A DNA stretch of 64,000 nucleotides from positions 144,872 to 208,871 of the forward strand of contig JAPJBO010000369.1 of NCBI GenBank assembly GCA_030068145.1, written 5' to 3'. The position numbers were made by a program, and so were the translations under genes. The notes under the pieces were generated by a model. That model was not told the origin of the DNA. It ran no database searches and saw only the letters and a list, made by a program, of their open reading frames with translations. This document shows positions 1 to 56,606 of this stretch, piece after piece (positions within the stretch are counted from its first letter, which is position 1; every line of letters starts with the position of its first letter). Source of the stretch: Diplonema papillatum (Eukaryota > Euglenozoa > Diplonemea > Diplonemida > Diplonemidae).

Positions 1-240
1 GAGGGGGCGGTCTCCTCTGTTGCTCGCACCCGTAAGCCACAATGCGCCCTGCCCACGCCGCGAGGTTTGGCCTGTTCGCAGTGAAGGGCCTCACGCGGTA
101 CCCCGGGCGGACGTTCGCTGTGCTGGGGCTGCTGTACGCCCTGTTCTTCATCCTGCACGCGGAGGGGAACCGATCAACACACACTAGTTAATCTTACGAT
201 CTAACCCACGATTTGGACACACCCCAACACTGTTCAGAAG
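1..240 (+). pseudogene. Partial copy A of the 5' end of the glucosidase II gene
   Basis: This segment repeats the leader and the first ~39 codons of the gene whose real start is at 1754. The ATG of this copy is at 42-44, and the frame reads [17 protein letters not shown] and onward through the membrane anchor. Similarity stops right after the codons for ILHA, where unrelated sequence replaces the real continuation. The window edge cuts it on the left. It is not expected to give a functional enzyme; it could only encode a short anchor peptide. Confidence 0.85.
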
Positions 241-260
241 CTCCTACCGCAGGAAAAAAT

Positions 261-525
261 AGGAGGGGCGGTCTCCTCTGTTGCTCGCACCCGTAAGCCA
301 CAATGCGCCCTGCCCACGCCGCGAGGTTTGGCCTGTTCGCAGTGAAGGGCCTCACGCGGTACCCCGGGCGGACGTTCGCTGTGCTGGGGCTGCTGTACGC
401 CCTGTTGCGAGGTTTGGCCTGTTCGCAGTGAAGGGCCTATGCCCCCTGCACGCGGAGGGGAACCGATCAACACACACTAGTTAATCTTACGATCTGACCC
501 ACGATTTGGACACACCCCAAACTGT
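261..525 (+). pseudogene. Partial copy B of the 5' end of the glucosidase II gene
   Basis: This is a second tandem copy of the same leader plus N-terminal codons, with ATG at 303-305. It shares the same non-gene tail as copy A, so A and B are a tandem duplication of about 260 bp. Inside copy B about 25 bases (the segment for the [10 protein letters not shown] region) are repeated again near 407-440, which breaks the frame relative to the real gene. Confidence 0.85.
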
Positions 526-748
526 ATAGAAGCTCCTTCTGAGTACGAAGACCACGTAACCAGGGTACTTTAGAAACCCGGTTTCCCGGTTTTCGAAACC
601 GGGTTTTTCCGGTTTCGGTTTTTCAAAAAAATAAAAAAAAAAAAAATTAAATTTTTCGATTTCAAAAATTTTTGGGTCTTTTTCGAACCAGCAAATCTCG
701 GCGGAAACAAAGAAAAGTGGCTCCGGCAGTACTGTACTGTACTGCTGT
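526..748. other. Intergenic, hairpin-rich A/T tract
   Basis: No gene is seen here. Positions 570-625 hold nested inverted repeats built from AAACCGGGTTT-type blocks, followed by an A/T-rich stretch with a poly-A run at 626-650. No coding signal is recognised. Confidence 0.5.
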
Positions 749-54500: not shown

Positions 54501-55970
54501 CCGGCGTCCGGCAATAGCGCAACCCGCCAGCCCCCGGCCGTGGGTTACGCGGCGCTCGCGCACGTCGGGTCAGTCGCGTCGGACGTGATCATGACGCACG
54601 GAGACTCGTCTTCGGACTCGGAAGACGCAGACGCTCCGACCTTCCACTACCACATGGTCAAGCGGGGGATTTCCCTCCTCAACACGACCCTCGCCGACAT
54701 CGAGGCCGGGAATTTCGAGCGCGATGTGGTGGTCGATGGGGTGACGACGCGGGGCGACCGGTGGTACGTGTCGCTGCTGCTCTCGGTGGCGGCGACGGAG
54801 AAGGCGGACGAGACGAACAAGCCGAAGAAGCCGGCGAACTGGTTCCACGCGGACTACGACCGCAAGCCGCTGGTTACTGCCCTCGGTGAGGTGCTCATGC
54901 GCGAAGCGATCACGGTGTACGTCCTAGCCCTCTCCGGAGCGGGCCACCACGTGACGCTCAAGCGGACACACGGCGTGAAGAGGCTGCGGGCGTTCTGCCA
55001 CTCGATGTTCGGCATCGAAGACGCGGTGCTGGTCTGCGATGCCGCGTTCACCGGGCAACAGGACGCCGCACTGCACGAGATGCGTGACTACCACGACCTC
55101 AACCAAAGCTTCGGCCTCGACCCCGACGAAGTCGAGTACAGGCTCCCGTCGTTCACCGTGTTCGTCATCCCGCGGGACCACTACTGCCCGGACCTCTTCG
55201 TGGCTCGGTTGAAGTTCAGCGAGCCCGGCGAGGTGGCGGTCGACGTGGGCCTGCTGCAGCTCGACTTTCGAGCGGTGACGCTCAAGACCATCGCGGGGTT
55301 CATCGCCGCGAAGGCGGGGCGGACGGATCCGCGTTCCGTCGAAATCTGCCTCGTCGACGACCGGACGGGGATCGAGTTCAACGTGAGTCAGGACACCGGG
55401 TGGCGGACGAACCTGTACGATTTGAACCTCCGCTCCGGGTGCACGATTCTCGCACGAGACGCGTGGGGGGCGCGGCTGGCGGGACGGGCGACAGCGCCGC
55501 GGGTCCTGATGGAGGAGGGTGACGACGACAACACGTGCGAGTTCTGGCCGCCGGGCGAGATTGTGCACTTGTACAGCACATGCGGGGTCGCGAAGGCGGC
55601 GCTGCTGCGGCCGTGGGCGCGTGCGATCGAGCGGATTGAGGTCGGGAGCAAGATGGTTGACGACCACCGCATGGACGCTGTGCTGGCGAGTCTACGGGCC
55701 GTGACCATGTGCCGCCGGAACAAAGTGCCCGTCCGGGCGTGGGAGCCGTTTTCGAGCTCGTCGGCCTGCGCCTGCTGCCACAACGACTTCGCGTGGATGG
55801 CCACGACGAACTCGAAGGCGGCCGTATCGCAGCTGCGGTCCCGGGCCCACTGCCACCACTGCGGCAAGGTCGTGTGCACCGAGTGCCGCCAGCGGGCCCT
55901 CGCCTCCAGCAGGTCGCCGCACCCGTCGCCCATTTGCGACGCGTGCTACTTCAAGGTGGCCACGTTTTAA
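51561..55970 (+). CDS. Class 3 lipase (diacylglycerol lipase-like) with C-terminal FYVE-like finger
   Basis: The single exon encodes 1469 aa. Residues 1-310 are Pro/Ser/Gly-rich with an internal SMSQSASSSPFRSGD / SLSLSASSPPFRGEP repeat. Residues ~394-440 are hydrophobic (ATVAAALSLAVATG), a possible membrane part. The alpha/beta-hydrolase core contains VFLVVRGTKHVADILIDG, then RLHKGMLRSAQWLF, the nucleophile elbow VIGHSLGAGVG (Ser812), and INGDDLVPRI, whose D865 fits the catalytic Asp. This combination is typical of sn-1 diacylglycerol lipases. The C-terminus has eight Cys in the FYVE spacing: C1403/C1406, C1431/C1434, C1439/C1442, C1459/C1462, around SRAHCHHCGKVVCTEC. The basic RRHHCR patch of PI3P-binding FYVE domains is only partly kept. 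Inferred role: lipid hydrolysis at an endosomal or other internal membrane. Start ATG 51561 is supported by its reuse in two upstream copies; ATG 51618 is an alternative. Confidence 0.88.
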   Translation: MWGGWLWPRQGGRGPEGTPMPYLQWLSESVSEGDGTFIRMLAPLDEQQAAESVATAGARTPPLPYTPGAAPSEHGTPKPQFPTTRTPPALYARQPAGSSPNNKVTPPLPADATATKKSAWLTSWWPSVGARPAAKPTQDADPVSDGEQPEPLDASKRAKDRSKPTAGGDPMPSTAIPVVTTAGGSPVAPEPDAYGSERRGSSPDAITLAGSMSQSASSSPFRSGDLMPSTTTAGGSPRAPQPVAHGNERPGGSPDAAALAGSLSLSASSPPFRGEPERRATLAPMPTAPESQLYRRHAAALRAAAAAALCVAAAANKPPGDGKELVLDTVCDRVDKAKGTWNLTSGWLSWLSGDSEAGLKKRRAAVKELYFPHLGMLPESEWIVAFVDMKIRELDAIAMATVAAALSLAVATGRLPRLQTVCFAATLVVACRASLCQDHLLRLFSEGPFFTRCFLLKDGPRQKGGASTVVSSSSSGSSLSSETDAAPRPVLITGEEKIRMYLKWYHFVHSEASWGLPWSDRLMALLSGLEFSKTRLAEFFEKGRKLARYEYPKDTKTDMALRIADSAAFVASAVAPHMQRWNTALQLVGQVATLSRISPFLIGSCVLSSDVREALADIVALMGSPHLTQVSSVPSTQLAVGLYYFLVYRRAERGNHPLTAFHEHQVDAPGVVMPDVPEDYLDLLKFHAPLAKIVYEELSADVQRLGDMFGYTLLHYEPVHLARHPSYAMFARNKEVFLVVRGTKHVADILIDGCSSPAKLVLKHTGPARNEPREFRLHKGMLRSAQWLFTRLWLPVAFLMDKGYTMRVIGHSLGAGVGVILTAIMRDEGLAPDLKCVAFSMPSCGDRAFAEYAENFCVSAINGDDLVPRIRITSLRNLMSAVADPILQARAHHDLSADTTGVLKRLATVWAPRMRSEKKRRRRAAKRLATREKPAAEDADQRDADYDLVVKAAIGPQQAELLTSEGEARESEEDSAVPSNPASGNSATRQPPAVGYAALAHVGSVASDVIMTHGDSSSDSEDADAPTFHYHMVKRGISLLNTTLADIEAGNFERDVVVDGVTTRGDRWYVSLLLSVAATEKADETNKPKKPANWFHADYDRKPLVTALGEVLMREAITVYVLALSGAGHHVTLKRTHGVKRLRAFCHSMFGIEDAVLVCDAAFTGQQDAALHEMRDYHDLNQSFGLDPDEVEYRLPSFTVFVIPRDHYCPDLFVARLKFSEPGEVAVDVGLLQLDFRAVTLKTIAGFIAAKAGRTDPRSVEICLVDDRTGIEFNVSQDTGWRTNLYDLNLRSGCTILARDAWGARLAGRATAPRVLMEEGDDDNTCEFWPPGEIVHLYSTCGVAKAALLRPWARAIERIEVGSKMVDDHRMDAVLASLRAVTMCRRNKVPVRAWEPFSSSSACACCHNDFAWMATTNSKAAVSQLRSRAHCHHCGKVVCTECRQRALASSRSPHPSPICDACYFKVATF

Positions 55971-56035
55971 GTGCTGTTGGGAAGGGCCGAAGCTCCAAGA
56001 TTGCGGTGTTTGCATCTTCCGGGAATGATTGCGTC

Positions 56036-56606
56036 TGCGGGCCGTGACCATGTGCCGCCGGAACAAAGTGCTGGTGCGCCGTTTTAGAGCTTGTCGGCGT
56101 GCGCCTGCTGCCGGCGGTGTTCGGCTGCTCCGGGAATGACTGAATTTTCAAGGTTGCGTTTGAATCCTCCGGGAACGATTGGGTCTGCGGGCCGTGATCA
56201 TGTACCGCCGGAACAAAGTGCCGGTGCGGGGTCGTGAAGGCGGCGCTGCTGCGGCCGTGGGCGCGCGCGATCGAGCGGATTGAGGTCGGGAGCAAGGTGG
56301 ATGACGACCACCGCATGGACGCTAGTCTGTGCGCCGTGACCATGTGCCGCCGGAACAAAGTGCCCGTCCGGGCGTGGGAGCCGTTTTCGAGCTCGTCGGC
56401 CTGCGCCTGCTGCCACAACGACTTCGCGTGGATGGCCACGACGAACTCGAAAGGCGGCCGTCTCGCAGCTGCGGTCCCGGGCCCACTGCCACCACTGCGG
56501 CAAGGTCGTGTGCACCGAGTGCCGCCAGCGGGCCCTCGCCTCCAGCAGGTCGCCGCACCCGTCGCCCATTTGCGACGCGTGCTACTTCAAGGTGGCCACG
56601 TTTTAA
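56036..56606 (+). pseudogene. Copies of the lipase/FYVE 3' end
   Basis: Short scraps of the AVTMCRRNKVPVR codons occur at 56038-56110 and 56188-56225. A long copy from 56228 repeats KAALLRPWARAIERIEVGSK through the FYVE Cys residues to the TAA at 56604-56606. The long copy lacks ~12 codons near 56318 and has a one-base insertion near 56450 that breaks the FYVE frame. Confidence 0.93.

Follow-up and report, generated by a model that had tools for sequence, protein, structure and literature searches.

Why should genes carry partial copies of their own exon edges on their outer, non-coding sides? We addressed this question in a 64,000-nucleotide stretch of DNA (hereafter the window), which comes from the nuclear genome of the marine protist Diplonema (Paradiplonema) papillatum: its EMC3 and GH31 proteins are 100% identical to D. 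papillatum records, with query coverage of 80% and 99%, respectively. A sequence-only reading had placed such copies in nine regions around four genes and had known of no named mechanism for them. Same-strand, truncated copies were found in all nine regions, by edge queries and by a self-comparison of the window that listed matches of at least 60 bp, and all four genes are affected. The phenomenon as a kind is not new, because "repeat-bounded gene structures" have already been described for dozens of D. papillatum gene models in the passages considered here of the genome paper (Valach et al., 2023, PMC10161547); a published description thus exists. No other work on gene-edge copies in diplonemids was found among the papers listed in literature searches, and a check of the main text of PMC12621601, as retrieved, for "tandem" gave no occurrence.

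The first gene encodes neutral alpha-glucosidase AB, a GH31 enzyme, with the following features.

1-164 and 246-406, + strand: truncated copies of the GH31 5′ edge (leader and start of exon 1), 98.5% and 97.5% identical to the intact edge, plus a scrap at 406-438 (array 1-537)
561-1681, strand unassigned: 1121-bp DNA transposon, putatively hAT-like, with short terminal inverted repeats and 8-bp direct repeats (target duplication)
1695-1876, + strand: intact GH31 5′ edge, matched by the upstream copies
1754-3904, + strand: GH31 exon 1 (P0026)
3566-4148 (intact), 4149-4706 and 4707-5166, + strand: three head-to-tail units of exon-1 3′ end, donor and intron start
9644-9976, + strand: GH31 exon 2
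11145-11363, + strand: GH31 exon 3
16603-16947, + strand: GH31 exon 4 (last)
16714-17878, + strand: array of exon-4 3′ end and flank, with decayed copies at 17262-17878 (75% and 68% identity)

The GH31 5′ copies stop inside the exon, three of the four long ones at 1873-1876 and the fourth at 1857. Two older copies (82-93% identity) lie upstream of the window. The transposon sits within the 5′ array, so the array predates its insertion. In the database protein P0026, exon 1 runs directly into exon 2. Neither edge of exon 2 has an exon-bearing copy, and exon 3 has no edge copies; a perfect 293-bp duplication lies at 8939-9530, 111 bp upstream of exon 2.

Copies are also present at the edges of a cytochrome b5/sphingolipid-desaturase-like gene.

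18580-19657, + strand: decayed copies of the desaturase 5′ edge in three 441- to 474-bp units, in each of which 41-48 bp of exon 1 can still be recognised
20068-20523, + strand: desaturase exon 1, its 3′ end predicted from the reading frame and a GT site
20397-21257, + strand: copies of the exon-1 3′ edge and intron start
21266-22431, + strand: copies of the exon-2 5′ edge and the acceptor side of intron 1
28740-29486, + strand: desaturase last exon
29286-30026, + strand: last-exon 3′ end and flank, intact and in one copy (copy region 29649-30026, 78% identity)

Copies of the exon-1 3′ edge and exon-2 5′ edge lie at 20783-21986, and 1576 of the 1680 bp of intron 1 (94%) belong to tandem copies derived from the intron's own edges. 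These form two separate families, one per edge: an exon-1 edge query over 20761-22200 and an exon-2 edge query over 20530-22189 each gave no match to the other's family. The last-exon copy missed the 28-bp rule in one edge-query run because it lies mostly inside the query.

The remaining two genes encode EMC3 and a lipase/FYVE protein.

36816-37046 and 37092-37345, + strand: EMC3 5′ edge copies (region 36816-37471), with the intact edge at 37472-37703
37503-38204, + strand: EMC3 exon 1
42264-42302: EMC3 last exon, 39 bp
50283-51763, + strand: lipase/FYVE 5′ edge, with two long copies (50330-50664 and 50658-51093), a partial copy (51087-51341) and the intact edge
51560-55970, + strand: lipase gene, one long exon that encodes both a class-3 lipase and a FYVE domain, its start placed from the frame and a codon model
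52097-52378, + strand: tandem duplication wholly within the lipase exon, offset 153 bp
55581-56619, + strand: lipase 3′ end, intact and as a copy (56225-56619), with smaller pieces at 56033-56228

A 30-bp scrap of the EMC3 interior (37893-37922) recurs at 36764-36793. Matches to the EMC3 last-exon 3′ side (44183, 44751) fall outside the 39-bp exon and were excluded from the counts. No relatives of the lipase were found at E ≤ 0.001 with residues 150-900 as query. Copies are seen at the 5′ edges of GH31, EMC3, the lipase and, in decayed form, the desaturase, as well as at the exon-1 3′ edges of GH31 and the desaturase. Elsewhere in the window, three arrays contain no recognised exon (43668-43938, 45870-47581 and 59846-60195), Rfam and tRNA scans found nothing, and a dispersed family of about 230 bp occurs at 5167, 16223, 23104, 24619, 32457, 36678 and 59544. 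This family is separate from the edge copies, which rules out introner-like elements as their cause.

The units of the arrays run head-to-tail in a single orientation, each comprising flank, edge and a piece of exon, with copy-to-copy offsets of 264-644 bp and a truncation point common to several copies. Tandem arrays grow by unequal exchange, and a middle copy made in this way is expected to resemble its downstream neighbour in its left part and its upstream neighbour in its right part. Hybrids in the predicted direction were detected in three of the nine triples tried (p < 5e-5, < 5e-5 and 0.002), or three of seven informative ones; of the others, four were not significant and two had too few sites, and none was significant in the opposite direction. 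The middle unit of the GH31 exon-1 3′ array (4149-4706) is such a hybrid, with 37 of 38 informative sites in the hybrid direction (p < 5e-5; in a stricter test on the exon part alone, 11/12, p = 0.013). Under stricter testing, all nine sites of the desaturase exon 1 triple agreed (p = 0.008), as did 16 of 19 in EMC3 (p = 0.019, or 0.18 if trimmed to 37676). The lipase (p = 0.14), 45870-array (p = 1.0 and 0.06) and GH31 5′ (p = 1.0) triples were uninformative.

Most probably, the copies stem from ordinary tandem duplications that set successive copies about 260-640 bp apart in a haploid genome rich in repeats, with selection on genes acting as a filter. When the duplicated segment has only one of its ends in an exon, the head-to-tail product always retains a complete gene next to an outer copy that breaks off within the exon; events of this kind, straddling an exon edge, would produce all of the features described. 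Once two copies were present, out-of-register exchange between them would add more, and outer copies would be free to decay while the inner copy would not. A duplication within an exon would break the gene unless it were in frame. The only confident in-exon duplication, in the lipase, is in frame, its 153-bp offset being 3 × 51. Head-to-tail geometry, same orientation, in-exon truncation, hybrid middle copies, decay and an in-frame internal duplication are all present in the window, whereas the mutational step behind the first duplication and the filtering by selection are inferred. The simpler proposal of the sequence-only reading, frequent tandem duplication of segments spanning exon borders in which the innermost copy alone keeps its link to the exon body, finds good support in the head-to-tail arrangement, the unit composition, the shared truncation points and the hybrids.

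How strongly the copies favour exon edges is a separate matter. In the cleanest test, in which the exon-side 350 bp was the query and 4 kb on the outer side the target, 10 of 20 exon edges had a same-strand copy and none of the 20 had an opposite-strand copy. Non-coding controls gave 23/106 and 3/106, respectively (edges versus controls, Fisher p = 0.013), although these controls are 400 bp apart, not independent, and in some cases inside the same arrays. Exon-interior tests were positive in 3 of 60. Gene-terminal edges were more often positive than internal splice edges (7/8 versus 3/12, p = 0.02; categories picked after seeing the data). Duplication clusters lay at edges in 8 of 18 cases versus 3.8 expected (p = 0.023), the lipase 3′ edge missing the 20-bp margin, and flank-only sequence beside exons had local copies in 13/20 tests versus 44/170 for controls (p = 0.001). 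The window is rich in duplications.

We then sampled the rest of the genome systematically rather than at random, taking bases 40001-50000 of 25 contigs at steps of five between C5 and C125, which are the longest ones. Ten of these 25 stretches contain no predicted exon, and exons were predicted, without RNA, by a codon model trained on the window. By the cleanest test, copies accompanied 5 of the 64 edges so predicted, against 16 positives in 344 non-coding tests (p = 0.35). Exon-interior tests were positive in 0/138, UQ_con loci had copies at 0/6, and clusters lay at an edge in 4/19 cases versus 2.7 expected (p = 0.25). The flank-only test gave 8/63 versus 31/559 (p = 0.048). Part of the flank-only matches, in the window as in the sample, come from dispersed elements, and turnover of transposons far from genes could depress the control. 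Another version gave 7/66 edges versus 10/398 (p = 0.005), with two of the seven coming from a predicted segment (L017:475-783) that proved to be a copy in its own right and that was removed from the tests giving p = 0.35 and p = 0.048. Gene-edge copies are thus a minority feature elsewhere in the D. papillatum genome. The sequence-only reading had extended them to every host gene and all gene edges: the former holds for the four genes here but not for the genome, and the latter fails even within the window. The excess of edges over non-coding sites that a border-aimed process predicts appears in the window; in the sample it varied with the test version (p from 0.005 to 0.35).

These counts bear on the strongest rival, in which short segments centred on a border are duplicated by a process that targets RNA-processing or GC-transition borders, through paired nicks, R-loops or stalled forks around the exon edge. 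The exon edge lies near mid-unit, at a unit fraction of 0.23-0.60 in 12 cases (p = 0.0003 versus uniform, post hoc), which random placement does not predict; GC content steps from 0.64-0.74 in exons to 0.50-0.63 in flanks at the nine edges measured; and the flank-only excess and the terminal bias point the same way. Yet the cleanest sample test showed no significant edge excess, the UQ_con loci lacked copies, many internal splice edges in the window have none, and both the centring and the contrast between terminal and internal edges are post hoc observations on few cases. We consider a border-aimed process unlikely. It is not needed for the geometry, and the edge excess that it predicts was not established genome-wide across the test versions. 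Ordinary duplication does not fully explain the excess of local duplications beside exons or the mid-unit edges, and there may be a mild preference for gene borders. A broader version, that short tandem duplications in diplonemids favour gene borders, are roughly centred on the edge, arise by break or re-replication tied to RNA processing or to the exon-end GC step, and are a main route of intron and flank lengthening, seems to us distinctly doubtful.

It is much less probable that the copies are functional, for example by offering decoy sites for splicing or leader addition, or by tuning expression. They do contain leader, donor or acceptor sequences, three of 12 lack a frame-shifting gap, and substitutions are scarcer in exon parts than in flank parts (88/2914 versus 149/1960, summed over rows that overlap and are not independent). 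But nine of the 12 copies have frame-shifting gaps, fewer exon-part differences are expected because one partner, the gene, is constrained, and the published array reportedly lies outside the mature mRNA (PMC10161547).

An assembly artefact merits even less credence, even in a repeat-rich genome assembled from short and long reads, given that divergence between copies reaches about 32% and that one array holds the 1121-bp transposon with its 8-bp target duplication. Moreover, PacBio reads are stated to back the assembly of one published array of the same kind at another locus, and the strain is reported as haploid in section 5 of the same paper, which rules out a haplotype mix-up (PMC10161547). 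Least probable of all is an origin through RNA or capture by mobile elements: several arrays have dispersed elements or the hAT-like element next to or within them, but the units span both sides of exon edges head-to-tail and include unspliced intron sequence, and the transposon interrupts its array rather than carrying it.

Several known systems are comparable. The structures of Valach et al. come from the same species and have degenerate copies, the most distal being the most diverged in their example; the passages considered present one worked example, with 12-13 copies, and no mechanism or rate (PMC10161547). What the window adds is copying of an acceptor-side edge, that of desaturase exon 2, and of the 3′ edge of the last exon in genes with several exons, together with hybrids and controls. 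In a potato RdRp gene, a tandem duplication likewise spans an intron-exon boundary and carries splice signals (Ma et al., 2016, PMC4974935); there, by the portion of the paper considered, one duplication created a new spliced intron, whereas the arrays here lengthen existing introns and flanks, with no new intron shown. The Rogers 1989 model, as summarised in the same portion, similarly lets tandem duplication in or beside an exon shape an intron, with gain by duplication of an AGGT-bearing exon segment whose two copies supply donor and acceptor (PMC4974935). In the edge queries described above, the edges of desaturase intron 1 are not copies of each other, and a Rogers-type origin is rejected for it. 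Like arrays that grow by unequal exchange in general, those in the window consist of units set head-to-tail, with some middle copies being hybrids of the kind that such exchange predicts; unlike them, they straddle gene borders, so that one end copy is under selection.

According to the genome authors, such copies mislead gene prediction and read mapping (PMC10161547, in the passages considered). The window adds four worked examples of this published oddity of the Diplonema genome, shows the likeliest route by which the arrays grow, and supplies a rough rate of about 1 in 13 sampled exon edges, which is near the local background. If a preference for borders were true, it would provide a simple DNA-level route to intron growth, testable in a transformable protist.

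The window (bases 144872-208871 of contig JAPJBO010000369.1) reaches the end of its contig in an assembly of 271 Mb and carries four genes, with several exon ends set from reading frame and splice signals, without RNA confirmation:

1754-3904, 9644-9976, 11145-11363 and 16603-16947: exons of a GH31 alpha-glucosidase
about 20068-20523, 22204-23079 and 28740-29486: exons of a cytochrome b5/sphingolipid-desaturase-like gene
37503-38204 and 42264-42302: exons of EMC3
about 51560-55970: class-3 lipase with FYVE domain

The EMC3 and GH31 proteins are 100% identical to Diplonema papillatum records. 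In the desaturase gene, what we take to be a PDZ-like stretch (22204-22450) seems to separate the cytochrome b5 and desaturase parts; Pfam reported no PDZ domain there. Past EMC3 exon 1, the open frame continues (38205-38376) into a dispersed repeat; a genome search with it gave 130 matches, and among those listed most were confined to the final third of the query. GH31 intron 1 holds a 474-aa open frame on the minus strand (6407-7831), with partly coding-like codon use and no Pfam match, which is possibly part of a mobile element. An open frame in GH31 intron 3 (11648-12394), which begins with a short match to ubiquitin hydrolase (UCH), is probably a fragment or mobile-element cargo.

Self-alignment found direct repeats at all nine places, spread over the four genes, where the sequence-only reading had seen partial copies of exon edges. 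Its further claim that all gene edges are copied held for genes, each being affected, but not for edges: searching the 4 kb on the outer side with the exon-side 350 bp only, our cleanest test, we saw that 10 of the 20 edges had a copy on the same strand. Non-coding controls gave 23/106 (p 0.013) and exon-interior tests 3/60 (21/112 and 1/62, respectively, in an earlier form of the test). The opposite strand had no copies at any of the 20 edges (controls, 3/106). Copies accompanied 7 of 8 gene ends versus 3 of 12 internal splice edges, and in a circular-shift test tandem clusters fell at 8 of 18 edges where 3.8 were expected (p 0.023).

Each unit comprises flank, edge and exon piece, and units lie head to tail. 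Four copies lie upstream of the GH31 5' edge, the outer two beyond the window; from inner to outer, their identities are 97.5, 98.5, 83-93 and 82%, and the longest match the exon as far as window position 1857-1876. Within this array sits a 1121-bp transposon (561-1681) with an 8-bp target duplication, presumably hAT-like from its features. The array therefore predates the insertion, and the element is a usable relative clock for the array. Divergence was greater in the outermost copies at EMC3, GH31 exon-1 3', GH31 exon-4 3' and desaturase exon 1, a pattern that the arrays of the lipase 5' edge and of desaturase exon 2 lack. Frame-shifting gaps occur in 9 of 12 copies examined, and tandem copies of the two edges of desaturase intron 1 make up 1576 of its 1680 bp.

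The window holds other repeats. Pieces of a dispersed family, roughly 80-230 bp, lie at 5167, 16223, 23104, 24619, 32457 (minus strand), 36678 and 59544, and more weakly at 57201; those at 5167 and 23104 begin immediately after exon-end sequence. An array at 45870-47581 has four copies of a roughly 400-bp unit and no recognised exon. The youngest-looking duplication in the window (8939-9530; 293 bp, 100% identical) has (TC)n at its end and lies 111 bp upstream of GH31 exon 2. Desaturase intron 2 contains a long satellite of 7 bp (CAACATG; 27491-28245).

If a two-copy array gained its third copy by out-of-register exchange, the middle copy must take after the downstream copy in its left half and after the upstream copy in its right. 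In the GH31 exon-1 3' array, 37 of 38 informative sites agree with this (p<5e-5; exon part alone 11/12, p 0.013), as do 9/9 at desaturase exon-1 3' (p 0.008) and, depending on trimming, 16/19 (p 0.019) or 11/12 (p 0.18) at EMC3. Of nine triples tried, three were significant, four were not (lipase, 0.14; 45870 array, 1.0 and 0.06; GH31 5', 1.0) and two offered too few sites; no triple was significant in the reverse direction. Out-of-register exchange is a likely growth mechanism of the arrays.

Why copies sit at edges may need no targeting. A tandem duplication straddling an exon border leaves one whole gene wherever its ends fall, and its outer copy must be same-oriented, carry neighbouring flank and end inside the exon; these features are therefore geometry and not evidence of aim. 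Duplications within exons would be purged unless in frame: the sole confident one (52097-52378) is in frame, offset by 153 bp, and exon-interior tests in sampled stretches elsewhere in the genome gave 0/138. Exon parts of copies also stay recognisable for longer than flank parts (summed substitutions, 88/2914 versus 149/1960).

No genome-wide preference for exon edges was established. Across 25 systematically spaced 10-kb stretches, copies occurred at 5/64 model-predicted edges versus 16/344 controls (p 0.35), and 4 of 19 tandem clusters lay at an edge (2.7 expected, p 0.25). Other versions pointed towards a preference: one gave 7/66 versus 10/398 (p 0.005), two rows coming from a segment itself a copy; clusters spanned 9/74 edges (3.8 expected, p 0.017), again including such a segment; and a flank-only test gave 8/63 versus 31/559 (p 0.048). 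Six further gene loci (UQ_con) had no edge copy (0/6), two having edges set by Pfam match and not by coding segment. In 12 cases the exon edge lies 0.23-0.60 of the way along the unit (p 0.0003 versus uniform), which is a lead only, because the pattern was spotted post hoc and both the desaturase 5' case and one other (L020) were left out.

A potato gene acquired an intron when a tandem duplication spanned the border between intron and exon (PMC4974935). Repeat-bounded gene structures have been published for this species, with no mechanism stated in the available text (Valach et al., 2023; PMC10161547). The arrays of the window are new instances of that published kind, to which a likely growth mechanism is now added.
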